Part shown: positions 6,807 through 26,256 of the stretch, one piece after another | Numbering within the stretch: the stretch's first letter is position 1 | Layout of the letters: each line of letters opens with the position of its first letter | From: Campylobacterales bacterium | GTDB taxonomy: Bacteria; Campylobacterota; Campylobacteria; Campylobacterales; Sulfurimonadaceae | Direction of reading: 5' to 3' | NCBI GenBank assembly: GCA_026390115.1 | Contig: JAPLGO010000014.1 | Span: forward strand, 1 to 33,639 | Length of the DNA: 33,639 nt | Notes under the pieces: model-generated | The model's input: only the letters and a program-made list of their open reading frames with translations | Databases searched by the model: none | Told to the model about the DNA's origin: nothing | Translations under genes and position numbers: made by a program

Positions 6807-8174
6807 TTAGACCGTTTTAGAGAATGTCTTTGAGCTTTGTGAATGTTTCTTCATATAGGCATCAAAAGGCATTGCAATATTTCTTATAAGCAAAGTTCCT
6901 GTTTCGGAACACTCGATATGATTTTCATCCATTTTTAAAAGTGCATCATCCTCAAAAGGTTTCAAAGCTTCGATTGCATCCGCAAAATAGGTTTTAAATT
7001 CAACATTAAAAAGTTTTTCAAATCTTTTTATATCCAGCTTGAAGTTGCTCATAAGTTCCATGATTACGAACTGACGGATTTGGTCGTCCACTGTTAAAAC
7101 TACACCTCGTTCAAATGGGAGTTTTCCTGCATCAATTGCCTCTTCATATTCATTCATATCTTTAAAGTTCTGGTTATAACTGTCCACACCTTCACCGATA
7201 GAAGTAAGACCTACTCCGATTAAATCTGCTCCGCCTTTGGTTGTATATCCTTGAAAATTTCTGTGAAGTTCGCCCTTTTCTATCGCTTTAAAGAGCTCAT
7301 CTTCCGGCTTTGCAAAGTGATCCATTCCTATCATCTTATAACCATGAGAAGTTAAAAAATCTATAGTAAACTGCATAATGCTAAGCTTCTCATCAGGGAG
7401 AGGAAGCGTTGTCTCATCGATTTTACGCATCGTTTTTTTAAGCCAAGGAACATGCGCGTAGTTAAAAACTGCAAATCTGTCAGGATTGAGGCTTAAAGCA
7501 AGGGAGAGTGTCTCTTTAAAAGTTTCCAGCGTTTGGTGCGGTAAGCCATAAATCAGGTCAACATTCACTGAGTGCATATTGTACTTCCGAGCCAAATCCA
7601 TTGCATCTTTTGTCATTCCATAAGGCTGTACACGATGCACTGCAAGCTGCACTTTTTCGTTAAAATCTTGAATTCCAAAACTTACACGATTAAATCCAGC
7701 CTCACTCATTACCCGCATCTGCTCTTCATTAATATGACGAGGGTCAATCTCACAGCTAATTTCAGCATCTTTTACAAAATTTGGAAAGTAGGATTTAATC
7801 TCTTCTATAATCTCTTGTAACTGCGGTGCTGAAAAAAAAGTTGGAGTTCCTCCGCCAAAGTGCATCTGAATAACTTCACGGTTACAGTTCAAATGTTTAG
7901 ATAAAATTTTCAATTCTCTTTTGAGATACTCCATATAGCGAACCATTTTGTCATCTTTTGAAGTAAATACAACATTACATCCACAGAAGTAACAGGCATT
8001 GCGACAAAAAGGAAGATGAAAATAGAGACTTAAAGGACGAGCCGAGTCTTGCGACTCCAGTTTTTTAATATATATGTCATACTCGTAACTGTCACTGAAC
8101 TCTAAGGCTGTCGGATAACTTGTATAGCGAGGGCCGGGTTTAGAATACTTTGTAAATTTTGCAAAATCTAACAT
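6807..8174 (-). CDS. hemN: Oxygen-independent coproporphyrinogen III oxidase
   Basis: HemN is a radical SAM enzyme that decarboxylates coproporphyrinogen III to protoporphyrinogen IX without oxygen. The cluster motif with Cys57, Cys61 and Cys64 lies in FCRNACYFCGCN, with the extra HemN cysteine at 66. FGGGTPTFF (about 113-121) is the SAM-binding glycine motif, and the opening PGPRYTSYPTA is typical of true HemN. The length of 455 residues is full size. It heads a tight hemN-FeS-lgt operon. A TATAAA at 8189-8194 on the minus strand is a possible -10 giving a very short leader. Heme supply fits the cytochrome-based respiration suggested by ccoIS and cytochrome c553. Confidence 0.96.
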   Translation of the reverse strand: MLDFAKFTKYSKPGPRYTSYPTALEFSDSYEYDIYIKKLESQDSARPLSLYFHLPFCRNACYFCGCNVVFTSKDDKMVRYMEYLKRELKILSKHLNCNREVIQMHFGGGTPTFFSAPQLQEIIEEIKSYFPNFVKDAEISCEIDPRHINEEQMRVMSEAGFNRVSFGIQDFNEKVQLAVHRVQPYGMTKDAMDLARKYNMHSVNVDLIYGLPHQTLETFKETLSLALSLNPDRFAVFNYAHVPWLKKTMRKIDETTLPLPDEKLSIMQFTIDFLTSHGYKMIGMDHFAKPEDELFKAIEKGELHRNFQGYTTKGGADLIGVGLTSIGEGVDSYNQNFKDMNEYEEAIDAGKLPFERGVVLTVDDQIRQFVIMELMSNFKLDIKRFEKLFNVEFKTYFADAIEALKPFEDDALLKMDENHIECSETGTLLIRNIAMPFDAYMKKHSQSSKTFSKTV

Positions 8175-8248
8175 TTTTAATCCAATATTTTATAATTTTC
8201 TGTAAAGTGGTGAGATTATCTCTAAAAAGTGTTGAAAGAGTTATAAAA

Positions 8249-9958
8249 CTATTTTTCAAACTCTCCGGCTAATCTTTGATAAATCTCTGAGTATTCTAAC
8301 AACTCTTTGTGATTTCCGCATGCTACGATTGCTCCACCTTGCATAACCAAGATTTTATCAGCATGTTCTATGGTGCTGAGTCTGTGTGCAATTGTAATTG
8401 TTATTTTGTCTTTCGTATATTCATTCAATGATTTTTGAATTCTTTTTTCACTTTCGTTATCGAGAGCGGAAGTTGCTTCATCAAAAAGCAGAAGTGAAGA
8501 GTGTTTATAAATCGCCCTTGCAATCGCTACACGCTGACGCTGTCCGCCTGAGAGATTTGCTCCGAATTCTTCCATTTTTGTCTGAATTCCATCTGAGAGT
8601 GCCTCTACAAATTTTATTGCATCTGCCAGTTTAAGAGATTCATAAACTCTCTCCTCATTTATCTCCTGTCCATAAGCGACATTGGCGGCAAGCGTATCCT
8701 GAAATATATAGATTCTCTGCGTTACAAGAGAGATATGATGCTTTAATGAGATTTGATTTAACTCTTTTATGTTTGTTTTGTTGATAAAAACATCGCCGCT
8801 GTCAGGGTCATAAAAACGAAGAATCATGTTGATAAATGTACTCTTTCCGCCGCCGCTGTCACCGACAAGCGCGATATTTTCGCCTCTGTTTATAACAATA
8901 TTCACATCTTTGAGGGCGTAGGCGTCGAGATATTTGAGTGTTACATTTCTAAACTCCACCTGCCATATATCCTCTTCTAAAAGCTTATCTCCATCAACAA
9001 TTCTGCTTTTAGTATCTAAAACTTCAAAAACTCTCTCACTCGCAGCCACTGCATCTTGAATTTTTGAATAAATAGAGCCTATGCGGCGAACAGGCTGAAA
9101 TACAAGCCCGACAGCGGTTAAGAAGGCGGTAAATTCACCAACACTCATCTTGCCCTCATATACCTCTTGTCCTCCTACAAAAATCACCGCTGCAAGCCCT
9201 GCCGCTCCGACAATCTCCATCAAAGGAGAAACTATTTCGCCCACATAAACAGACTTCATATTTATTTTAAAGAAGTCCCAATTTTGCGTGCTGAAGCGCT
9301 CAACCTCGTATTTTTCCGTAGCATTCGCTTTTATGATTTCGCTGTTGTTAAAAACCTCGGTAAGTCTTGTCACGACATCTGCATTTTTTGCCTGTGAACG
9401 GTGGGAGTATTTTTTAAGTTTTTTTGCTATCAGAATAAGCGGATAGATAATAAGCGGAACAACTATCAGAGAGTAAAACGCAAGAGTCGGATTGAGATAA
9501 ATCACATATCCGACAAGTGCAACAACGGTCAAACTCTCACGAAAAAGCTCGGGAAGCATATTTGAGACAAAATATTGGATGCGGTTTATATCGTTTGTAA
9601 CACGGGAAATAAGCTCTCCGCTTCTGTTTAAATACAGAAATGTCATGTCAAGAGAGATGATTTTTTCTAAAAGCATTTCACGAAACCTTGTCACTATATG
9701 CTGACCTATGTAGTTCATGTAAACAGATTGAACATAACGCCCGACTGATTTTAAAAAGTAGATTGCAACCAAACCAAAAGGGATAAAATAGAGCATCTCC
9801 TCTTTTTTGGCTATAAACATGTCATCCATAAGAGGCTTCATAATGTGGGCGGTTGCGGTAGTTGCACCTACTGTTAGAAGTATTCCTGCCAAAACCAATA
9901 TATATTCCAGTTTATACTCTTTTATAAACGGCCAATATCTTTTAAAAATTGTTTTCAA
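8249..9958 (-). CDS. msbA: MsbA-like lipid A/glycolipid ABC exporter
   Basis: This 569-residue half-transporter has six membrane helices in residues 1-300 followed by an ATPase domain. It shows Walker A GDSGGGKST (367-374), signature LSGGQ (469-473), Walker B LLLFDEA (489-495) and the switch His525. It would flip lipid A-core across the inner membrane, consistent with the neighbouring LPS genes. The start codon is TTG, supported by an AGGGA site 6 bp before it and by the normal MsbA N-terminus. It lies 15 bp after the LTA-synthase-like gene, so both are probably one transcript. The substrate is inferred; other lipids are possible. Confidence 0.9.
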   Translation of the reverse strand: MKTIFKRYWPFIKEYKLEYILVLAGILLTVGATTATAHIMKPLMDDMFIAKKEEMLYFIPFGLVAIYFLKSVGRYVQSVYMNYIGQHIVTRFREMLLEKIISLDMTFLYLNRSGELISRVTNDINRIQYFVSNMLPELFRESLTVVALVGYVIYLNPTLAFYSLIVVPLIIYPLILIAKKLKKYSHRSQAKNADVVTRLTEVFNNSEIIKANATEKYEVERFSTQNWDFFKINMKSVYVGEIVSPLMEIVGAAGLAAVIFVGGQEVYEGKMSVGEFTAFLTAVGLVFQPVRRIGSIYSKIQDAVAASERVFEVLDTKSRIVDGDKLLEEDIWQVEFRNVTLKYLDAYALKDVNIVINRGENIALVGDSGGGKSTFINMILRFYDPDSGDVFINKTNIKELNQISLKHHISLVTQRIYIFQDTLAANVAYGQEINEERVYESLKLADAIKFVEALSDGIQTKMEEFGANLSGGQRQRVAIARAIYKHSSLLLFDEATSALDNESEKRIQKSLNEYTKDKITITIAHRLSTIEHADKILVMQGGAIVACGNHKELLEYSEIYQRLAGEFEK

Positions 9959-9973
9959 ATATATCCCTAGTTT

Positions 9974-11959
9974 TTACTTTTTTTGTGATTTTATCAAATA
10001 CTCTGTCACTGCCAGTGTTGCTTTATACTGTTCTTGACACTTTTTTTGCTCATCCGACTCTGCTTTGCCATCTTTAAAACCGCCGTCTTTTGCAATAATT
10101 ACGCCGGCATCATTAAAGCCGCAGTGAAGCCTGCTTTTGTCTAATAGATTTGTGCCGATAGCCGCGTACTCTTTCTCATCCAGTGTCAGGTTATAGAGTG
10201 TCGGAAAAATATCTTTGTGCGATGAAGCCAGAGTTGTGTCAATCGCCTCTTTTGGTTTCAAATAAGGCGGCAAATAAATATAAAACGGGATTTTCTTAGT
10301 TTGCGTATAGTAATCATCGTATTTCATTATCCCCTCAATCGTGTTATTATCGGCAGTAAATGCCACAACCGATTTTTTTGAGAGCTCTGAATTTTTCACT
10401 CTGTCTAAAAATGCTCCCGCCATGTCAAGGGCATAGGCATAATCTTTAAACCTTAATTTTGCAAGCTCCAAGTCTCCCGTTATATGCTCTTTGAGATTCT
10501 GTGCAATCTCCAAAGAGTTTGATTTGTAATCACTCGGGACGGTGTATGGCGGATGGTTGTTTGTAGTAAGCACAAAAATAAATTGTGGTTTTGTGGCATT
10601 GTTTAATTTTTCAAACACATAGTTGTAGAGATACTCATCAAAAACCCCCCAATCATGGGAGATAGACTTAGCATCTTTCCCCAAACTTGTAGCAATAGAA
10701 GCTCTTCCATCCACATGCTCAAATCCTTGACGCGATACAAAACTGCCGACATTTCTCCAAGATAAATCTCCACCGTAAACAAATGAAGTTTCATATCCGG
10801 CATCTTGATACACCTTTGCACTCGCCTGCTTGAATGAGGTGTTTAAATACTCACTTTGGGCAAAAGATGTTGAGTCCGGACGCGCCGTGATGTTTAAAAG
10901 CAGGGGTTCCAAAGATACAATCGTTCCGTTTGAGCTTGAGATAAAATTTGTAAAAAGAGTATCTTCTTTAAAGTGTTTTTGAAGCCTGCCCATAATATTA
11001 AAACTCTCACTCTGATAATCCAAAATAGGCGTACCAAAACTCTCAACCATGACAACAACGACATGTGGGCTTTTCTCTTTTGCAGCTTCATTATGGGAAG
11101 ATTTATATCGGATGTTACTCAGCAAATCCTCTCTGTTTATATTCTCATTTTGCGTGTGAACCTCAAAAGCTTTATCGATTTTGCCTTGATACCCTGCCAT
11201 TGTTATGAGGTCATAGTTTCCCGATTTACTCTTTGTATATTGCTCGTAGGAGTTGAGCATTGCGTAACATGCGGTTTGTGAAAGCTTGTTTATAAATGGG
11301 TCTCGACTCACATCAGGAATATCTTTTGCAAGTGGAAAAAGCCCGACTGAACCTCTTCCTAAAAGTACAACAACCGCTATTACGGCTATAAAAAAGAGTG
11401 CTTGTTTAGGCAGGTTCCATAAGACACTGAACTTTTTTTGTTCCTTGAGAATTTTAAAAATAATAAAGTAAAAGAGCGAGAAAAAAAGAAAAACTCCGAC
11501 TCCGACAAGAGGAATATTATAGTTAGCAAATGCTGTTTTTACAAGTGCCTCGGTATCATCATCCACAACACCGAATATCATAAGCGTTGCATGCTCCGCG
11601 AAGTAGGAGAAGTAGGTTAAATCTGCAAATGTAATAAGAAACAAAAATGACAAAAAGAGCACAAAATAGGCTCTGAAAAAGTTATAAAGATATTTTTGCA
11701 AAAACTTTAAATTTAAAAGCCAGACAATAAAAGTGAAAAGAACTGCAGGAGCAAAAACATAGGCGAGAATACTTGCATCAAGCCTCAACCCAAGCAAAAA
11801 GGTGTTAAAAAGCTCTAAAATTGTAAAAGAAGAGGATGCGCCGTAGCTCAAAAAAAGATAGAGGCGTGAAGCCAGCATGAAAACTAAAAGCACTAAAGAG
11901 AGCTTTAAAAATGAGAAAAGCAGATTTAAAAAAAATGAAAAATGATTATTTATTTGCAT
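9974..11959 (-). CDS. LTA-synthase-like phosphotransferase, altered metal motif
   Basis: The 661-residue protein has about five N-terminal membrane helices (within residues 8-205) and a periplasmic alkaline-phosphatase/sulfatase-fold domain from about 298. Expected LtaS-type positions can be seen: Glu306 in VESFG, Thr346 in SNGT as nucleophile, Trp401/Arg402, and His469 in NNHPPY. The usual Asp-His pair reads FTADNNT, so the histidine is Asn538. LtaS-like enzymes move phosphoglycerol, or phosphoethanolamine in related families, onto envelope glycans. It is cotranscribed with msbA, suggesting lipid A or core as target. The altered ligand could reduce or change metal use. Exact donor and acceptor unknown. 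Confidence 0.85.
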   Translation of the reverse strand: MQINNHFSFFLNLLFSFLKLSLVLLVFMLASRLYLFLSYGASSSFTILELFNTFLLGLRLDASILAYVFAPAVLFTFIVWLLNLKFLQKYLYNFFRAYFVLFLSFLFLITFADLTYFSYFAEHATLMIFGVVDDDTEALVKTAFANYNIPLVGVGVFLFFSLFYFIIFKILKEQKKFSVLWNLPKQALFFIAVIAVVVLLGRGSVGLFPLAKDIPDVSRDPFINKLSQTACYAMLNSYEQYTKSKSGNYDLITMAGYQGKIDKAFEVHTQNENINREDLLSNIRYKSSHNEAAKEKSPHVVVVMVESFGTPILDYQSESFNIMGRLQKHFKEDTLFTNFISSSNGTIVSLEPLLLNITARPDSTSFAQSEYLNTSFKQASAKVYQDAGYETSFVYGGDLSWRNVGSFVSRQGFEHVDGRASIATSLGKDAKSISHDWGVFDEYLYNYVFEKLNNATKPQFIFVLTTNNHPPYTVPSDYKSNSLEIAQNLKEHITGDLELAKLRFKDYAYALDMAGAFLDRVKNSELSKKSVVAFTADNNTIEGIMKYDDYYTQTKKIPFYIYLPPYLKPKEAIDTTLASSHKDIFPTLYNLTLDEKEYAAIGTNLLDKSRLHCGFNDAGVIIAKDGGFKDGKAESDEQKKCQEQYKATLAVTEYLIKSQKK

Positions 11960-16719: not shown

Positions 16720-16735
16720 TATAATCGCGCTCATG
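16720..16735 (+). promoter_or_regulatory. Predicted leaderless promoter, TATAAT-N7-ATG
   Basis: A perfect -10 hexamer TATAAT (16720-16725) is followed by the 7-bp spacer CGCGCTC and then the ATG of the kinase-like gene. A standard start point would be at or next to the A of the ATG, so the mRNA should be leaderless. No Shine-Dalgarno sequence is present. The same arrangement occurs before the genes at 21385 and 22719. Confidence 0.6.
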
Positions 16736-17476
16736 AATAAATACAAATTAAATAAAAACTACGCAAATAACTTCCAAGTTTTTCTTTCAGATATCAGAGA
16801 ATATTTTCATCGCAATAAAAATACAATCCATAAAGCCAGAAATGAATTAAAAGTTATAAATCACGAAAAAGTAGATACCGTAGTAAAATCTTTCAGAATT
16901 CCTAATATATTAAACCAAATTGTTTACTCTTTCTTTAGAGATTCAAAGGCAAATAAATCTTACGAATACTCTCTGAAAATTGGAGATTTTACACCGGAGC
17001 CTATTGGATATATTGAATTTTACAAATCTATTTTTTTAAAAGAAAGTTATTTTATAAGCAAAAAATTTGAATATGACTTTACCATACGAGAACCTTTGCT
17101 TGATCCTGAATTTCCAGACAAAGAAGAGATTTTCAAAGCATTTGCAAGATTTACATTAGAGCTTCACAACTGGGATATATTTCATAATGACTACTCACCT
17201 GGGAATATCCTTGTAAAAAAAGAGAATGGACACTATATTTTTAAAATTGTTGACATAAACAGAATGAAATTTTTCAAATTAACCCAGAAAGATAGAGCAA
17301 AAAATTTTTCTAAACTGTGGGCCAGTGATGAAATCTTAACTCTAATAGCTAAAGAGTATCAGTCAGCTTATGGGTGTGATAACAAATTTATAGAGCGGGT
17401 ACTCTATTATTCAAACAAAAATAAAAGAATTAAAAATTTTAAAAAAAGATTAAAAGGTCAAGAAGTTAATGACTGA
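16733..17476 (+). CDS. LPS-core kinase-like protein (Kdo/heptose kinase family)
   Basis: This 247-residue protein resembles the small kinase-fold enzymes that phosphorylate LPS core sugars (KdkA, WaaP/WaaY, InaA-like). The catalytic loop reads HNDYSPGNIL (151-160), giving Asp153 and Asn158, and the metal-binding Asp is likely Asp174 in VDINR. Lys52 in VVKSF is a candidate ATP-binding lysine. The glycine-rich loop is not obvious, as is usual for this family. The gene has no ribosome binding site and a TATAAT 7 bp before its ATG. It overlaps the next GT2 gene by 8 bp. It is visibly more AT-rich than the housekeeping genes nearby, which may reflect transfer. Confidence 0.78.
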   Translation: MNKYKLNKNYANNFQVFLSDIREYFHRNKNTIHKARNELKVINHEKVDTVVKSFRIPNILNQIVYSFFRDSKANKSYEYSLKIGDFTPEPIGYIEFYKSIFLKESYFISKKFEYDFTIREPLLDPEFPDKEEIFKAFARFTLELHNWDIFHNDYSPGNILVKKENGHYIFKIVDINRMKFFKLTQKDRAKNFSKLWASDEILTLIAKEYQSAYGCDNKFIERVLYYSNKNKRIKNFKKRLKGQEVND

Positions 17477-18251: not shown

Positions 18252-19188
18252 CGTCATCAAATATTTTTTCTCTATTTGTTGAAGACGGAATCATAAAATG
18301 CTCTTGCAATTTTTCATCTCCGACACCCTTCCAGCGTGCGGAGCTTGCAAAGAGGCTATCGGCAAAAAATGTCATGGTCGGCGTTCCAACGAGGGATGCA
18401 AGATGATAAGTTCCGGTGGAAGTACTCACAAAAAGTTTGAAATTGCTTATGAGTTTTGCAAAATGTACTATCCCTTCTTTTGAGATGTAGAAAATAACTT
18501 TTTCATGTGCAAACCTCTTTTTCATCGCATCACACAGAGCCGTTTCATCGGGTCCAAAAGTAAGAACTACTTGGTATTTCCCATGAGCCAGAACTTCACG
18601 GATTAAAATCTCATACTCATCCAAGCTCCAGTTGGCATCGCTGCTTCCGCCAAAGCCCACATGAAAAGCTACTACTGCTTTTGATATGTGATACTCATGA
18701 ACAAACTCTTCATACACCTCTTTTGCATCACAAAACTCCAAAAGCGGTTTTTTATACTCCAAATTTATCTCAGAAAAGAGTGTTTTTGTAAGCTCTAGGT
18801 TATACTCAAACTCCCCCATTTTCACTTCGCTTCTTCGCTGTTTTATACGATGAGTATAGAAAATTTGCGCTATTTTTGTGGCAGGTGCTATGCGTTTTGG
18901 AATGCGTGCCAAAAACTGGGCAAGAGCTACTCTTGTATTTGAAAAAAGTGTTATGGAAGCATCAATTTTTGCAGCTCTTAATTTTGCTGCTAACTCAAAA
19001 ACAGAGATTTTGCCGTCATCCACCAATACCTCATCAATAAATGGGCACTCAAATGCAAGTTCTCTATTCAAAGGTGCAATGAGAGCTATAATTCTGTTTT
19101 GCGGATTATGCTGTTTTAAAACATACATAGCAGGGAGGGCAGTTATAAAATCACCCAGCTTATCGGTACGGACTACTAAAATATTCAA
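18226..19188 (-). CDS. Heptosyltransferase-like glycosyltransferase family 9
   Basis: The 320-residue GT9 protein starts MNILVVRTDKLGDFITALPA, the typical acceptor-side block. Its C-terminal nucleotide-sugar domain carries GFGGSSDANWS and STGTYHLASLVGTP, the usual GT9 motif with a Thr-rich loop and His. It would transfer heptose (or a related sugar) to the LPS inner core; WaaC, WaaF and WaaQ are all possible. A separate, clearer WaaF is at 25291. The start is TTG, in a TTGA overlap with the stop of the DNA ligase gene, so translation of the two is coupled. Confidence 0.88.
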   Translation of the reverse strand: MNILVVRTDKLGDFITALPAMYVLKQHNPQNRIIALIAPLNRELAFECPFIDEVLVDDGKISVFELAAKLRAAKIDASITLFSNTRVALAQFLARIPKRIAPATKIAQIFYTHRIKQRRSEVKMGEFEYNLELTKTLFSEINLEYKKPLLEFCDAKEVYEEFVHEYHISKAVVAFHVGFGGSSDANWSLDEYEILIREVLAHGKYQVVLTFGPDETALCDAMKKRFAHEKVIFYISKEGIVHFAKLISNFKLFVSTSTGTYHLASLVGTPTMTFFADSLFASSARWKGVGDEKLQEHFMIPSSTNREKIFDDVKSALSKI

Positions 19189-19994
19189 TCTTTTCTCACT
19201 CTCATGTAGGAAGCAAACTTCGGCTTGCCGTTTTTTGTAAAACCAAAATATTTAAACGAAACCATCTCCCCTATTCTTGGAGGATTTTTTCTCTGCACTT
19301 CGCTAAATCCGCTTCCTATCAAAAACTGCGTGCCATCTTCAAGTTCAACTTGCAGACTTCCCATCATTCCCGTAAATTTGCCGCTTCCGTTTTTATAACC
19401 TATGACTTTCGCTTCCATATCCTCTGCAAGTTTTACTTTTAAAACAGAGTCGCTTCTGCCCTCAAAATAAGCTTTTGAACCATCTTTTATGACAACGCCC
19501 TCTCCCCCGCCAGCTATAACGCTCTGAAAATAGGTATCCAACTCTTTTTTATTTTTACATATTTTTTGCTCGATTACTGCAACATGTGTAAGATTCTGCT
19601 CTTGTATATATCTTTGAGCCTGTTCGAGTCTTTTGCTAAAATCACCCTCGGCATGAGGAGCTTCAAATATCATATATTTTATTTTGCTCCACTCCGGTTT
19701 TGGCGTTTTATCCATCACGATGGATTGAATATTTTCAAAATCCCCTCTCTTCGTCCAAAGTTCGCCGTCAAGCTCAAAGGGTGGAAGCTTCTGCGTAAAC
19801 CACTCCGGAGCGTTTATACTCTGCCCCTGTCTTGAAAGAAGCTTTTTTCCATCCCAATAGGCTCGAACACCATCAAACTTTTCAGACATCATCCAGCCGG
19901 AAATATTTTGGTCACTATAGATATTTGCTTTTTGTAGTGTGAGTGCGTTGAGATTCAATACAAATAAAAGTGCGACTACAAAAAGCTTTAACAT
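19185..19994 (-). CDS. ligE: Periplasmic ATP-dependent DNA ligase (LigE type)
   Basis: The 269-residue protein is a minimal ATP-dependent DNA ligase with an N-terminal signal peptide (residues 1-17, LKLFVVALLFVLNLNA). The adenylated lysine is Lys39 in SEKFDGVRAYW (motif I KxDGxR). Motif III is FELDGELW (73-80), motif IV GEGVVIKDG, and motif V VLKVKL. The OB domain follows, giving the usual length of the Lig E group known from Haemophilus, Neisseria and Campylobacter. It would seal nicks in periplasmic or extracellular DNA, perhaps during uptake. It starts 1 bp after ugd and overlaps the GT9 gene by 4 bp, an unexpected place for a DNA ligase. Confidence 0.93.
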   Translation of the reverse strand: MLKLFVVALLFVLNLNALTLQKANIYSDQNISGWMMSEKFDGVRAYWDGKKLLSRQGQSINAPEWFTQKLPPFELDGELWTKRGDFENIQSIVMDKTPKPEWSKIKYMIFEAPHAEGDFSKRLEQAQRYIQEQNLTHVAVIEQKICKNKKELDTYFQSVIAGGGEGVVIKDGSKAYFEGRSDSVLKVKLAEDMEAKVIGYKNGSGKFTGMMGSLQVELEDGTQFLIGSGFSEVQRKNPPRIGEMVSFKYFGFTKNGKPKFASYMRVRKD

Positions 19995-21357: not shown

Positions 21358-21387
21358 TATCTTAAAAAAGATATAATCGCACTTATG
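21358..21387 (+). promoter_or_regulatory. Predicted leaderless promoter with inverted repeat
   Basis: TATAAT (21372-21377) is followed by the 7-bp spacer CGCACTT and then the ATG at 21385, with no ribosome binding site, so the transcript is expected to be leaderless. An inverted repeat TATCTT-AAAA-AAGATA spans 21358-21373 and overlaps the first bases of the -10. It could be an operator or chance in AT-rich DNA. Confidence 0.55.
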
Positions 21388-22710
21388 AAAAAACCGTACC
21401 AGTGGGATGATTATTCAGATCAGCCATACCAACTCAAAGATAAAAACTACAAAAAACAGATAAGAAAAAAGGAGTTTTTCTCTCTTTTAAAAACTTTTTT
21501 TATAGCTCTACTTATCCTTCCATTTTCACTCATAATGATGCCATTTACAAAAAGGAAAGAGGTATATGCTGCCACTTTTTTTTGCATCGGAGTCGATTAT
21601 GAAAGGGAGCCTGAGCTCACTTTAGAGCTTTTGGAAGAGCTTGAGGTTGAGAGAGTTTTGCTCCGTTTTAAACTCTGGGAGATGAAGAAACTTCCTCTTT
21701 TAAAAGAGTTTATTTTGGCATATGCCCGAGCAAAGCGACAAATGCCCTTGGGGTATAAAGATAAAAAAGTAACTCTAAAAATCATGCAAGACAGAGAACA
21801 TGTTGAAGATTTAAAACTGCTTCAAAAAGATTTACGCACGATTTTTGCCACACTTGATGGACATGTAGATATGTTCGAAATCGGCTCAACAATTAACCGA
21901 ACTAAATGGGGATTTTTTAGCGTGGATGAGTACAACCGTTTCTACAAAACAGCCTATGAGTTAAGAGAAAGTGAGTTTCCGTATATGCCCGAACGAAGCG
22001 ATAAATGCCCGGGGGGTGCTAAATTAATCGGAAGTGGAGTTATAGATTTTGAGTATCACTTCACTGCCAATACACTTTTTAATCTCTTCAAATACCGTTA
22101 TGACGGAGTCTCTTCACTTTTATATGTCGATAGACGAGGTGCACCGGAGAACATGCAAATGGGCTTTAATCTCTCAAGTAAAATAGCACTTCTTAGCACC
22201 ATGGTTTGGCTTAGCCCAAAGAGTGCAAATGAGCTTCATATCACCGAAACAAATTGGCCCATTTCAAATACAGCTCCCTATGCGCCAACTAGTGAGCATG
22301 AGTGTGTGGATGAGGAGAGTTATGCAGATTTTATGCTTCGCTACTACCTGTTAGCCTTTGCTTCAGGGCAAGTAAACTCTGTCTCTTGGCATCAACTCAT
22401 TGCTGCAGGATATGGGCTGATTGACAATCGAAACGGAATTAGAAAAAGAAAAGCTTATTTCACTTTTAAATATATGGTGCAAACGCTAAAAAATGCTCAA
22501 TTTTTACAGTTAAATATAAAAAAAGAGTATTACATATTTCAATGTCTTGCTGATAATCAGCTTTTGCAAATTCACTGGTCGCTAAAACCAAAAGTCCTAA
22601 AAAATGAGAAGTTCTTTGAAGTTTATTCAAAAGATGGGAAACGAGTAGAGGATAAAACTCTTAATATTGGCTCCTCTCCTCTCTATATTTACACAAAAGA
22701 CGCGGTATAA
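21385..22710 (+). CDS. Membrane-anchored TIM-barrel glycosidase-like protein
   Basis: I do not recognise a named gene. The 441-residue protein has a basic cytoplasmic N-terminus, one membrane segment (about 31-53) and then a periplasmic domain. The order of strands resembles a clan-A (GH39/PslG-like) glycoside hydrolase: LKIMQD (131-136), FEIGSTINR (164-172) with Glu165 as possible acid/base, LYVDRRGAPE (246-255), and ITETNWP (286-292) with Glu288 as possible nucleophile. A small beta domain (about 382-441) ends SSPLYIY, as in GH39-like enzymes. It might trim or edit an envelope polysaccharide. It leads an operon with PAP2, LtaS-like and waaF genes. Function is a hypothesis. Confidence 0.6.
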   Translation: MKKPYQWDDYSDQPYQLKDKNYKKQIRKKEFFSLLKTFFIALLILPFSLIMMPFTKRKEVYAATFFCIGVDYEREPELTLELLEELEVERVLLRFKLWEMKKLPLLKEFILAYARAKRQMPLGYKDKKVTLKIMQDREHVEDLKLLQKDLRTIFATLDGHVDMFEIGSTINRTKWGFFSVDEYNRFYKTAYELRESEFPYMPERSDKCPGGAKLIGSGVIDFEYHFTANTLFNLFKYRYDGVSSLLYVDRRGAPENMQMGFNLSSKIALLSTMVWLSPKSANELHITETNWPISNTAPYAPTSEHECVDEESYADFMLRYYLLAFASGQVNSVSWHQLIAAGYGLIDNRNGIRKRKAYFTFKYMVQTLKNAQFLQLNIKKEYYIFQCLADNQLLQIHWSLKPKVLKNEKFFEVYSKDGKRVEDKTLNIGSSPLYIYTKDAV

Positions 22711-22721
22711 TTGCGCCCATG
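22706..22721 (+). promoter_or_regulatory. Predicted leaderless promoter overlapping a stop codon
   Basis: TATAAT (22706-22711) contains the TAA stop of the upstream gene and is followed by the 7-bp spacer TGCGCCC and the ATG of the PAP2 gene at 22719. The spacing predicts a leaderless transcript that starts inside an otherwise cotranscribed cluster. There is no Shine-Dalgarno sequence in the 8-bp gap between the genes. Confidence 0.55.
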
Positions 22722-23381
22722 AATACAAAATACCTAAACATTAAACTCTATTTCTGGCTCCTTTTTTTTTGTGCTTCACTTATTTTTATTTTTTTTCCTC
22801 AAATAGATTTGTACATTTCAAGCCTCTTTTATGACGGCAAAAGTTTTCCAGCTAATGGAATGTGGCTTGAAGAGCTCTTTTACTACTCGGTGCAACCTAT
22901 AATAATCACATTTGCACTCGTCAGTTTGGCTCTTTTTGCATACAATTTTTTTACCAAAAAAAATATTTTAAATATGAATGCAAAAGTTGTTTTATACTTA
23001 CTTTTGGTTTTGGGAGTCGCTCCCGGCCTAATCGTGAATGTCACTCTTAAAGATAATTGGGGAAGAGCAAGACCTGCCGAGATAACAAACTTTGGCGGAA
23101 CAAAAGAGTTTACACCGGCATTTATTCCAAGCAATCAAGGTGGATACTCCTTTAGTTCAGGGCATGCAGCAGCCGCTTTTTCTCTCATCGGTTTTGCTCT
23201 TTTGTCCCGTAAGCGAAAAAAATTTTGGATGAGTTTGGCATTTGCATATGGCGTTTTTGTAAGTCTTGCGAGAATGTCCGCTGGTGGGCACTTTTTGAGT
23301 GATGTTGTCACTTCCTTTTTCATAGTTACTCTATTTACATATATATTCCACATGCTGGTATTACAAAAGGATGAACAATAA
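22719..23381 (+). CDS. PAP2-family lipid phosphatase (LpxE/LpxF-like)
   Basis: The 220-residue protein has about five to six membrane helices and the three PAP2 motifs: Lys111 to Arg118-Pro119 (KDNWGRARP), SGH at 147-149, and Arg185...His191...Asp195 (RMSAGGHFLSD). These form the phosphate-binding and His-nucleophile site. In this context likely substrates are a lipid A phosphate (1- or 4'-position) or undecaprenyl diphosphate, acting on the periplasmic face. It sits 8 bp after the TIM-barrel gene and just before the LtaS-like gene. The exact substrate cannot be told from sequence. Confidence 0.9.
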   Translation: MNTKYLNIKLYFWLLFFCASLIFIFFPQIDLYISSLFYDGKSFPANGMWLEELFYYSVQPIIITFALVSLALFAYNFFTKKNILNMNAKVVLYLLLVLGVAPGLIVNVTLKDNWGRARPAEITNFGGTKEFTPAFIPSNQGGYSFSSGHAAAAFSLIGFALLSRKRKKFWMSLAFAYGVFVSLARMSAGGHFLSDVVTSFFIVTLFTYIFHMLVLQKDEQ

Positions 23382-25294
23382 ATTCTCGCAACCAGCTCAC
23401 TCAAATATTTTTTGTACTGATCATCAGTTTTGTCGCACTTATGGCGATTCGATTATCGCTCTATAACTTCTACCCAGCTGACTTTAGCGACCTAACAAAT
23501 CGTGAGTTTTACGCCTCACTGCTTATGGGTTTTCGTGTTGACATGATTACTCTTTTTACATTTTCGTCTCTCTTTGTTTTAGCTCTGCTTTTTGTTCAAA
23601 ATACCAAATACAGAGTAATCATTGCACTTATTTGGGCACTAATATTAAACGCTATTTTTGTACTTTGCTTCAGTGATGTGTTGTACTACGACTATATTCA
23701 CAGACACATGTCAAGCGAGATTTTTAACCTTGGAGACGATGGTGATATTATAGTTGGCATGGCGGTTGGCTCCATGCTTCCTTTTACACTTGGAGCTATA
23801 TTTTTAAGTACCCTATTTTTATATACTATTTACAAAGTTTTTTCTCAAAAGCTGGAGAGTTTCATCTCTGGCAGAATGCTCATAATTTTAACAATCATAA
23901 CAATTTTAGCTCTGTTTTTAGGAATAAGAAACAACTTCACAGGCAAGAGTTTTGGCAGTAGCGATGCCTATGCAGTAAATAAAGTAAGTAGCGGAAACTT
24001 AGCACTCAACGGTTTTTTTACTATTTACAGGACAGCAAAAACTTCATCTAAGCACACTCTTGCCAAACTCGATGATGCCGTAAAAATCACACAAGAGGCG
24101 ATGCAGACTCACAATGCACCTTTTATCAATAAAGAGTATCCGCTTCTTCGTTCATACGCAAAAAAAGAGACTCCGAAATACAATATAGTTATAGTTCTAC
24201 TGGAATCATTCGGAGCGGAGCATGTGGACGGTTTTACACACTATAAAGAGCTAGGAGTCACCCCTTACTTCAAAAAACTCTCAAATGAGGGGCTGAAATT
24301 TACTAATTTTTACTCCAACGGATACCGCTCGATTTTTGGGATAACTTCTCTGTTTACCGGCATCACGATTCCCACAGGATTTGAGTATCTGGGCAAAGGA
24401 TTAGAACTCTCAAATCTCAGCTATCTTGGAGATGTAGCAAAAAAAAATGGTTATTCTACTCTCTCCATGCAAGCGGCGAATAATCGCTCTTACAGAGTGG
24501 ATGCAGTAAGCCATCTGGCAGGCTTTGACGACTATTACGGTGCGGAGGACATGCCCAACGTAGAGGCATGTGATGAGGGAAGAGCGCCGCTTACGGGGAC
24601 TTACGACTTTAACATGCTCGATTTTTATCATAAAAAGCTTAATGCAATGAAAGAGCCGTTCTTAGGCTTTGCCTTTACTGACTCTACCCACTCGGATTTT
24701 TATCTCCCAAGCAAAAAGTTTGAGAGGTTTCCGCATGATTTACAAAACTATAACGGTGCACTCAATGCCTATATTTATGCAGACAATGCGATTGAACGAT
24801 TTATGGAGAGTGTAAAAAAAGAGCCTTGGTTTGAGAGAACTATTTTTGTTTTCACCTCAGATCATGGAAGTGGTGATGCCCTAAATGAGATTGCAAAAAG
24901 CCATGGCAGGGAAAATAAGCCTTTAACATCAATTGAACATTTTAGAATTCCTCTCATAATCTATGCACCGAAAATATTTAAACATGAAGAGATAACAACT
25001 CTCGGTTCACATAACGATATTTTTCCTACTTTAGTGGACATGCTTGGACTTGAAGCAAATATTACGACAATGGGAAGTTCACTTTTTGATAAAAATGTAC
25101 ATGAGAGATTTACTTACTTTTTTGCAGGCGACCTCATCGGTTTAGTCACAAACGATGGATATATTAAATACAATTTTAAAGAGATTGTTGAACATGTTGG
25201 GAATAAAGAGAGTGTAGAGAAGATGAAAAAACTACTTTTTGCGGTTGACACTGCCGAAGCGGGATTGTTAGAAAAAAACAGGTGGGCAAAGTGA
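23378..25294 (+). CDS. LTA-synthase-like phosphotransferase (second copy)
   Basis: This sulfatase-fold enzyme has about five N-terminal membrane helices and a periplasmic catalytic domain. Counting from the ATG at 23441 (617 residues), expected sites are Glu255 in LLESFG, Ser297 in SNGYRS at the nucleophile position, His417 in DSTHSDF, and the intact Asp474-His475 in FTSDHG. The start is uncertain. The ATG at 23441 has no ribosome binding site and lies inside the first hydrophobic helix. The open frame extends upstream to a TGA at 23372-23374 with no ATG, GTG or TTG; an ATA at 23378 sits 7 bp after AAAGG and is used here as a provisional start. Probable phosphoglycerol or phosphoethanolamine transferase for envelope glycan. 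Confidence 0.8.
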   Translation: MNSRNQLTQIFFVLIISFVALMAIRLSLYNFYPADFSDLTNREFYASLLMGFRVDMITLFTFSSLFVLALLFVQNTKYRVIIALIWALILNAIFVLCFSDVLYYDYIHRHMSSEIFNLGDDGDIIVGMAVGSMLPFTLGAIFLSTLFLYTIYKVFSQKLESFISGRMLIILTIITILALFLGIRNNFTGKSFGSSDAYAVNKVSSGNLALNGFFTIYRTAKTSSKHTLAKLDDAVKITQEAMQTHNAPFINKEYPLLRSYAKKETPKYNIVIVLLESFGAEHVDGFTHYKELGVTPYFKKLSNEGLKFTNFYSNGYRSIFGITSLFTGITIPTGFEYLGKGLELSNLSYLGDVAKKNGYSTLSMQAANNRSYRVDAVSHLAGFDDYYGAEDMPNVEACDEGRAPLTGTYDFNMLDFYHKKLNAMKEPFLGFAFTDSTHSDFYLPSKKFERFPHDLQNYNGALNAYIYADNAIERFMESVKKEPWFERTIFVFTSDHGSGDALNEIAKSHGRENKPLTSIEHFRIPLIIYAPKIFKHEEITTLGSHNDIFPTLVDMLGLEANITTMGSSLFDKNVHERFTYFFAGDLIGLVTNDGYIKYNFKEIVEHVGNKESVEKMKKLLFAVDTAEAGLLEKNRWAK

Positions 25295-26256
25295 GGATAT
25301 TAATAATACTTCCAAATTGGTTGGGTGATGCCATTATGGCTACTCCGGCTATCGAGCTTTTATCTCAATATTACCCGCAGGCAAGATTTACTTTTGTCGG
25401 TAGTTTTGTAAGCATAGAGGCTTTAAAATATCATCCACAGTGTGAAAGAGCTATTGTTGATGAGACAAAAAAGAGCTCTAATAGATTGTTAGCAACCTAC
25501 ACATTGGCAAAAGAGTTAGGTACGTTTAATTTAGCAATAAGCTTCAGAAACCAGCTCCATGCTTCACTTCTTTTGAGATTTACAAACACCGTTTTTTGTA
25601 TCGCTAAACAGTCATGGCACTCCATGTTTTTACTCTCTCACACTCCAAAAATATCCACGAATCAGCATTTAGTGATGCAGTATGCAAAACTAGCCATGAC
25701 AAATGTAGATGATTTTGATGAAACAATCAGGGATTTAAAGCTCTATATTGAAGCAAAAAAGTTTGACAGACCCACTCTTGGCATCAATGCCGGAGCAACT
25801 TACGGAAGTGCAAAAAGATGGTATCCTGAGAGGTTTGCAGCCGTCGCTAAAGAGTTTTCAGACAAGTTTGATATCATCATTTTTGGTGGACCAAATGAGG
25901 TAGAGGTGGCAAACGAGATAGAGCAAAACTTAGGTATCCCTTGCACTAATTTAGCAGGAAAAACAAATATTCAAGAGTTATGTGCAAATATCGGCGGATG
26001 CTCTCTCTTTATCACAAACGACAGCGGACCTATGCATGTAGCGGCGGCATATAAAGTGCCTACAGTTGCTATTTTTGGACCTACAAAGCATACCGAAACC
26101 TCACAATGGATGAATGGAAAAAGCAGAATTGTAAGACATGAAATGGAGTGTAGCCCATGCATGAAACGCGAGTGCCCTCTCGGACATCACGACTGTATGA
26201 GGGGCATAACAGCTTCAGAAGTCATTATAGCGGTAAGGGAAATAGAGCTTTTATAG
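25291..26256 (+). CDS. waaF: ADP-heptose:LPS heptosyltransferase II
   Basis: WaaF adds the second heptose to the LPS inner core. The protein shows RILIILPNWLGDAIMATPA at the N-terminus, NAGATYGSAKRWYPERF mid-chain, NDSGPMHVAAA near residue 243 and the WaaF cysteine block CSPCMKRECPLGHHDC near 288-303. I chose GTG at 25291, giving 321 residues, because it starts directly at the conserved MRILI block, overlaps the upstream stop as GTGA, and has AGGTGG 6 bp before it. A GTG three codons earlier (25282) is possible. It is the last gene of the GH-like/PAP2/LtaS-like operon and converges on hldE with a 19-bp gap. Confidence 0.93.
   Translation: MRILIILPNWLGDAIMATPAIELLSQYYPQARFTFVGSFVSIEALKYHPQCERAIVDETKKSSNRLLATYTLAKELGTFNLAISFRNQLHASLLLRFTNTVFCIAKQSWHSMFLLSHTPKISTNQHLVMQYAKLAMTNVDDFDETIRDLKLYIEAKKFDRPTLGINAGATYGSAKRWYPERFAAVAKEFSDKFDIIIFGGPNEVEVANEIEQNLGIPCTNLAGKTNIQELCANIGGCSLFITNDSGPMHVAAAYKVPTVAIFGPTKHTETSQWMNGKSRIVRHEMECSPCMKRECPLGHHDCMRGITASEVIIAVREIELL

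Follow-up and report, generated by a model that had tools for sequence, protein, structure and literature searches.

A predicted GH39/PslG-fold protein apparently lacking the canonical acid/base residue is encoded in a lipopolysaccharide inner-core locus of many Campylobacterota

Here we describe GHx, the protein encoded by the first of four consecutive genes in a lipopolysaccharide (LPS)-core locus of a Campylobacterales bacterium (Sulfurimonadaceae; GenBank assembly GCA_026390115.1, 39 contigs, 2.64 Mb); "the window" refers to the whole stretch of 33,639 nucleotides that was analysed (JAPLGO010000014.1, contig 27 of the assembly). Its closest described counterparts are PslG of Pseudomonas aeruginosa and GH39wh2 (PDB 5jvk) of Bacteroides cellulosilyticus, both of glycoside hydrolase family 39 (GH39) and both composed of a TIM barrel and a C-terminal beta-sandwich. 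The substrate of PslG is the Psl exopolysaccharide, while GHx sits in an LPS-core locus; the acid/base of PslG is Glu165, and Asn164 also touches the ligand (excerpts of PMC11912335). A GH39-like enzyme with altered catalytic residues, CmGH1 (5z3k), has Gln157 and Tyr264 replacing both Glu and is reported to be active (excerpts of PMC6933502). For the neighbouring genes the comparable pathway is that of Helicobacter pylori, where Kdo-lipid A is modified first by LpxE (PAP2 family), then by the phosphoethanolamine transferase EptA and then by a Kdo hydrolase of two parts, lpxE and eptA sharing one operon, and a phospho-alcohol transferase gene placed after a PAP2 phosphatase gene has been described in H. 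pylori and Capnocytophaga (excerpts of PMC3245313 and PMC4730577). We report that GHx is a dedicated part of the LPS/lipooligosaccharide (LOS) inner-core locus in many Campylobacterota. We suggest that it may act on the LPS core by an altered catalytic mechanism, the most likely of the readings weighed below, if somewhat short of an even chance.

The four genes lie consecutively on the plus strand, tightly packed and almost touching (Table 1), as an earlier reading of the window made from the sequence alone (the sequence-only reading) had them, and the last three give PAP2, sulfatase and heptosyltransferase family matches. GHx, which that reading had already called unrecognised, is the only one of the four with no credible Pfam or NCBIfam match. 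None of 33 GHx members matched any glycosidase family in these databases (E-values up to 10, within HMMER's filters), the GH39 profile PF01229 had no match anywhere in the genome at E 0.001, and PDB searches by sequence (phmmer with GHx, and profiles of 17 and 33 sequences) gave no glycosidase, returning nothing or only chain 7uek (E 0.29 and 4.4). No GHx match was found in the plasmid and phage collections either.

AlphaFold2 models were built for GHx (17 sequences; pLDDT 80.5, pTM 0.85) and for L032, a relative without the two 33-bp insertions described below (14 sequences; pLDDT 82.5, pTM 0.85), and each model comprises a helix (residues 31-54), a beta/alpha barrel and, C-terminally, a beta-rich domain. 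Using VIA, which re-ranks the first 1000 Foldseek matches only, the top rows for the window GHx were both GH39, i.e. 5jvk (Z 29.1, rmsd 2.8, 337 residues aligned) and PslG (9g17; Z 27.1, rmsd 3.3, 348 aligned), and the corresponding values for L032 were Z 31.8 (rmsd 2.7, 336 aligned) and Z 30.4 (rmsd 3.2, 348 aligned). The best rows outside GH39 reached Z 22.2 for the window GHx and 24.4 for L032, and in both models 5jvk and PslG exceed the best GH30 or GH1 rows by 5 to 7 Z. The TIM barrel and C-terminal beta-sandwich of GH39 are thereby predicted for GHx, as is the PslG likeness that the sequence-only reading had anticipated; the resemblance to PslG and GH39wh2 (Z 27-32, rmsd 2.7-3.3 over 336-348 residues) covers most of the soluble part and includes a Glu at the nucleophile position, although the sequence identity is only 12-15%. 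With Foldseek alone the top match is the GH30 protein XynC (E 3.3e-13), and by that ranking GH30 may be the nearest family.

For the putative active site, 115 matching loci yielded an alignment of 90 different sequences (window GHx included), all free of stops and no shorter than 300 residues. Glu288 is invariant; it closes strand beta7 and occupies the GH39 nucleophile position. At the end of beta4, the acid/base site, GH39 members generally have an Asn-Glu motif (Asn164-Glu165 in PslG), and this is not found in GHx in either of two possible registers. Specifically, for the pair formed by residues 168 (S 54, T 24, N 10, H 2) and 169 (T 78, A 11, V 1), ten sequences retain the Asn and none of the 90 has the Glu, and in the alternative register, Asn171-Arg172, the second residue is Arg in all 90 and no acid either. 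Judged from the aligned sequences, the canonical acid/base, and with it a counterpart of PslG Glu165, is absent in GHx whichever register is taken.

The sequence-only reading had picked out Glu165 and Glu288, both present at these residue numbers, as the catalytic pair of an ordinary glycosidase forming one system with the PAP2 and LtaS-like proteins. While the GH39-like fold and the invariant Glu288 are what such an enzyme would have, residue 165 is Glu in only 59 of the 90 sequences (Gln in 29, Ile and Val in one each, i.e. 31 without Glu) and sits inside strand beta4 (163-166), ahead of the acid/base place; Glu288 is hence retained from the proposed pair and Glu165 is not. Downstream of GHx, moreover, PAP2 is absent in 39 of 51 loci and the LtaS-like gene in 38 of 51, and we regard a two-Glu glycosidase of this kind as very improbable.

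The altered mechanism that we favour has a reported precedent for activity without the canonical Glu pair in CmGH1, which shares with GHx the GH39-like fold (VIA Z 22.4 and 23.3) and changed catalytic residues; unlike CmGH1, GHx retains the nucleophile, the likeness being one of fold (excerpts of PMC6933502). Invariant in all 90 sequences are also Asn171, Arg172, Lys174 and Trp175 (after beta4), Asp221 and Glu223 (beta5), Asp249, Arg250 and Arg251 (beta6), Asn290 (beta7), and Trp335, His336 and Gln337 (beta8). In the 33-member alignment, 23 of the 43 invariant barrel positions fall in strand C-end windows that cover 80 of the 314 positions (hypergeometric p 2e-5; the windows were chosen by us and the end of beta8 was assumed at 334), and so do 9 of the 14 charged or His invariants. 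That charged residues around the mouth of the barrel are invariant suggests a site that was altered and did not decay. In such a site Glu288 would be kept as nucleophile with the beta4 acid/base Glu lost, and a second invariant group of the barrel mouth (Glu223, Asp249 and His336 are candidates) or the substrate itself might supply or replace the proton. The basic invariants Arg172, Lys174, Arg250 and Arg251 suggest that the substrate would be acidic, e.g. a Kdo- or phosphate-bearing core.

These four basic residues could also hold the phosphate of a donor with a good leaving group, such as a polyprenyl-phosphate sugar, in which case GHx would be a retaining transglycosylase or glycosyltransferase that needs no general acid because the donor itself has a good leaving group; myrosinase, a glycosidase using a good leaving group, may provide an analogy. 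A kept nucleophile together with a lost acid/base, basic invariants after the barrel strands, the predicted membrane anchor and the LPS biosynthetic neighbourhood all agree with this. Among the window genes, however, no linked gene for donor synthesis was seen, and the ligand contacts of the basic residues are putative; we consider a transglycosylase improbable. A similarly low probability is given to its fullest form, in which GHx would be an undescribed GH39-fold family that has given up the general acid, gained a basic pocket and remodels or builds the LPS inner core periplasmically, as a biosynthetic transglycosylase paired with waaF.

Several observations weigh against an editing enzyme with altered catalysis. 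The GHx invariants are basic, unlike the negative residues described as lining the GH39 pocket (excerpts of PMC6933502), and the lack of the acid/base Glu in all 90 sequences would be just as compatible with a protein that catalyses nothing. In both models, confidence is among the lowest in the loops that follow beta4 and beta7 (pLDDT <50 for residues 173-176 and 290-306 in the window GHx, and for 158-165 and 276-283 in L032), and motif and strand position, in place of a residue-level superposition, served to set the beta4 register relative to GH39. With Z 21.1 and 22.5, the GH39 beta-xylosidase 2bfg does no better than GH30 and GH1 rows, and the match of GHx is therefore to the PslG/5jvk branch only. 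One relative (L004), dropped from the 90 sequences, carries a stop codon in place of the one for Glu288. Finally, 301 of 397 genomes of the phylum are without GHx, and the GHx step is therefore not universal.

Some of these points would fit a pseudo-glycosidase, that is, a GH39-fold lectin or scaffold that cleaves no bond and, by binding nascent core at the membrane, directs assembly or transport. Besides the missing acid/base and the low-confidence loops near the site, Klotho chains, GH-fold proteins not known to be catalytic, appear among the VIA rows, and an invariant N-terminal segment suggests a partner. In this segment, which is expected to be cytoplasmic, W7, D8, D12, Q13 and K23 are fully conserved (1.00 of the aligned letters in the 90 sequences), S11 to 0.99 and P14 to 0.98, and the exact codon pattern for WD.....DQP occurs once in the genome. 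Glu288 and the many charged residues kept throughout the 90 sequences nevertheless seem more than binding would need, and CmGH1 is reported to be active with Gln157 and Tyr264 replacing the two Glu (excerpts of PMC6933502); a protein that binds without cleaving is in our view doubtful.

With respect to distribution, GHx was detected in 37 of the 60 genomes in a search of relatives (own genome included) and in 96 of the 397 Campylobacterota genomes, covering 27 of 68 genera; two of the 96 (G382 and G392) match only weakly and in part (E 2e-4 to 4e-4). A scan of genome contigs, which reaches close relatives only, found GHx at 16 loci, under titles that name Campylobacterota or are unspecific "bacterium" metagenome-assembled genomes (MAGs); the named relatives are mostly Sulfurimonas or Sulfurimonadaceae MAGs. 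By gene content the window region is an LPS-core locus, in keeping with the envelope-glycan role that the sequence-only reading had assigned to it: on the minus strand, ugd, a DNA ligase gene and a GT9 gene lie to the left of the four genes and hldE and hldD to the right, and hldE, hldD, GT9 and GT2 genes are found near GHx in many relatives. The gene neighbourhood was analysed for 56 loci (the 16 from the scan and 40 picked by us), 51 of which have at least 4.5 kb downstream of GHx. In 43 of these 51 (22 of 25 close and 21 of 26 distant loci) waaF lies downstream of GHx in the same orientation, no more than 150 bp away in 28 loci, and in eight there is no waaF downstream. PAP2 follows in 12 of the 51, all close (0 of the 26 distant), and the LtaS-like gene in 13 (11 close and two distant, the latter at approximately 25% identity); PAP2 occurs without the LtaS-like gene in L112 and L119, and the LtaS-like gene without PAP2 in L115. 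The linkage anticipated for all four genes is accordingly seen for GHx and waaF and not for the complete set. The simplest reading is that GHx-waaF is an old unit to which PAP2 and the LtaS-like gene are separable additions.

Two side observations concern the GHx relatives. Fourteen distant members (among L083-L099, and L118) are only 345-365 residues long and therefore apparently lack the C-terminal beta-rich domain, and in four loci (L037, positions 8163-9995; L103; L104; L116) a further LtaS-like gene, diverged and 42-45% identical, is located directly upstream of GHx.

The sequence-only reading took PAP2 as a lipid phosphatase and its neighbour as a sulfatase-fold enzyme; the family matches support the PAP2 and sulfatase-fold assignments. 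The PAP2 motifs are complete (KX6RP at residue 111, SGH at 147 and RX5HX3D at 185), and the nearest model is LpxF, with a score far below the curated equivalog cut-off (NF045633, 94.8 bits vs 400). The LtaS-like protein has the sulfatase-fold domain PF00884 (134 bits), and its nearest PDB chains are VP1736 (3lxq, 3.4e-23; uncharacterised) and then lipoteichoic acid (LTA) primase (4uop, 3e-11); it falls below the curated cut-offs for LTA synthase/OpgB (NF053595, 81 bits vs 970; NF003000, 57.5 vs 574) and far under that for phosphoethanolamine transferase (19.4 bits vs 500). The nucleophile of LTA synthase is Thr, and the residue taken as its counterpart is Ser here, as in the aligned 3lxq. EptA also has a sulfatase fold; the transferase here is, unlike EptA of H. 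pylori, LtaS/OpgB-like by score. The GT9 gene has PF01075 at 1.7e-41 and scores above the WaaF cut-off (Table 1).

According to the scheme that we propose, GHx would be anchored in the inner membrane with the predicted GH39/PslG-fold domain facing the periplasm, where it would edit the glycan of newly made LPS core through an altered retaining mechanism. WaaF, whose family adds the second heptose in the cytoplasm, would do so here, and in some Sulfurimonas-like lineages the two optional genes lie between GHx and waaF. PAP2 probably removes a lipid A phosphate, and the LtaS-like protein probably adds a phospho-alcohol taken from a phospholipid, and the diacylglycerol set free would be recycled by DgkA; a dgkA-family gene present in the same genome fits such a role. 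The claim that no described system has a set of this kind was too strong, since the H. pylori LpxE, EptA and Kdo hydrolase pathway is comparable: a PAP2 phosphatase lies beside a phospho-alcohol transferase, and the pathway includes an inner-core sugar hydrolase (KdoH1/KdoH2; excerpts of PMC3245313 and PMC4730577). Unlike in H. pylori, the genes here adjoin waaF, and the likeness drawn between GHx and KdoH1/KdoH2 is one of putative pathway role. Among the open-access papers searched nothing was found for Sulfurimonas together with lipopolysaccharide and heptosyltransferase, and nothing on GHx was noticed in titles and opening lines of the abstracts listed on Arcobacter core or glycoside hydrolases. 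GHx would stand for an unassigned and often kept step of LPS-core assembly in a phylum to which free-living Sulfurimonas and Arcobacter relatives belong, and with one of two catalytic carboxylates this predicted GH39-fold protein provides a clean test case for functional change of such folds. If GHx edits the core, a periplasmic core step in these bacteria is invisible to gene-by-gene annotation.

Table 1. Positions of the four genes and of features within GHx, numbered from the first letter of the window
Feature	Coordinates	Strand	Remarks
GHx	21385..22710	+	441 aa; N-terminal signal anchor, predicted GH39/PslG-like TIM barrel, C-terminal beta-sandwich; without sequence family
Conserved N-terminal segment, residues 5-23	21397..21453	+	motif WDxxSDQP; 90-sequence alignment
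Predicted membrane-anchor helix, residues 31-54	21475..21546	+	helix in the model; hydrophobic by eye
First in-frame 33-bp repeat insertion in GHx	21721..21753	+	boundaries uncertain by a few bases; core repeat from 21723
Beta4 motif, residues 164-175	21874..21909	+	FEIGSTINRTKW; Thr169 at canonical acid/base position; Asn171 and Arg172 invariant
Second in-frame 33-bp repeat insertion in GHx	21985..22017	+	boundaries uncertain by a few bases; core repeat from 21986
Glu288 codon, nucleophile position	22246..22248	+	E in 90 of 90; end of beta7 (DSSP strand 284-288)
PAP2-family membrane phosphatase	22719..23381	+	220 aa; PF01569 9e-21; KX6RP, SGH and RX5HX3D motifs
LtaS/OpgB-like sulfatase-fold transferase	23378..25294	+	PF00884 8.9e-39; apparent AUA start; canonical-start ORF from 23441
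waaF, heptosyltransferase II	25291..26256	+	TIGR02195 185 bits vs cut-off 134.6; alternative GTG start 25282

Gaps of at most 8 bp had been claimed between the four genes, and this holds for GHx-PAP2 (8 bp) and for the LtaS-like gene and waaF, which overlap; for PAP2 and the LtaS-like gene it depends on the start. The first ATG, GTG or TTG (23441) leaves a gap of 59 bp and may be an alternative start. The open frame extends upstream to an ATA (23378-23380) that coincides with the site of an ATG or GTG in many relatives and overlaps the PAP2 stop (23379-23381), which makes a 3-base overlap of the two genes probable. This AUA is the apparent start of the LtaS-like gene, whose N-terminal residues are conserved despite the ATA or ATC, which was observed at the start site in five distinct sequences (the window, L032/L152, L037/L153, L039/L162 and L166). 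Most other relatives have ATG, GTG or TTG at the site or one codon on, and L171 has a GTG two codons upstream. A frameshift was rejected because the same frame is open, with ATA or ATC at the start site, in L032, L037, L039 and L166. The likely waaF start is the GTG at 25291, the GTG at 25282 being a second candidate; the LtaS-like stop (25292-25294) overlaps the former, and the two genes hence share 4 bases.

The two 11-residue insertions in GHx are copies of one dispersed repeat. Among 16 other loci only L031 shares the first insertion, and L039 has a different 6-codon insert; for the second, 15 of the 16 are without an insert and L036 has a dissimilar 11-codon insert, and both insertions are absent in 29 relatives compared. 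A 25-base pattern of the repeat (up to 3 mismatches) gave 53 matches in 17 of 151 family genomes and, when reversed, none in the 151. The repeat is read in frame, as a peptide resembling HVPERSDKCPWG, in genes for, among others, alanine racemase (Alr), cysteinyl-tRNA synthetase (CysS), an enolase-superfamily protein and a NadB-like protein, and further copies are intergenic or in other frames; outside the window, loci with the repeat are L047-L054, L129, L132, L145 and L150. In CysS the peptide lies opposite gaps of 14 and 2 residues in the alignment, and in NadB (L145) it aligns to known structures without a clear gap. A looser 14-base core (1 mismatch) gave 8 matches in the own genome vs 4 in the reversed control, and single weak copies may therefore be due to chance.

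A stable hairpin in the repeat was rejected, as folding energies were no better than for shuffles. The inner two-pair stem covaries in 25 of the 34 copies listed, with a score reached by 0 of 500 shuffles (pair 24-30: GC 15, AU 6, CG 2, GU 1, other 1). Nine copies (L048, L053, L121, L123, L126, L131, L137, L140 and L143) were left out; on visual inspection, the second pair is broken in L053 and L140 and changed on both sides in L123. In titles and opening lines of the open-access abstracts listed on palindromic repeats and Sulfurimonas nothing was noticed on this repeat. Its behaviour is like that of the Rickettsia palindromic elements, which are dispersed and inserted in frame in protein genes (excerpts of PMC10969869), but it differs in length (33 bp vs approximately 150 bp) and occurs in another phylum.

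Scans for promoters (16 vs 14.2 in shuffles, sd 4.0) and terminators (4 vs 3.5) gave no clear excess. Two further genes of the locus deserve mention. The gene at 16733-17476, which accompanies the locus in many relatives, has a kinase-like HNDYSPGN motif (by eye) and no Pfam match at 1e-5, and an ATP-dependent DNA ligase gene (19185-19994; PRK09125, 360 bits) is situated within the LPS-core locus and keeps its position in several relatives.

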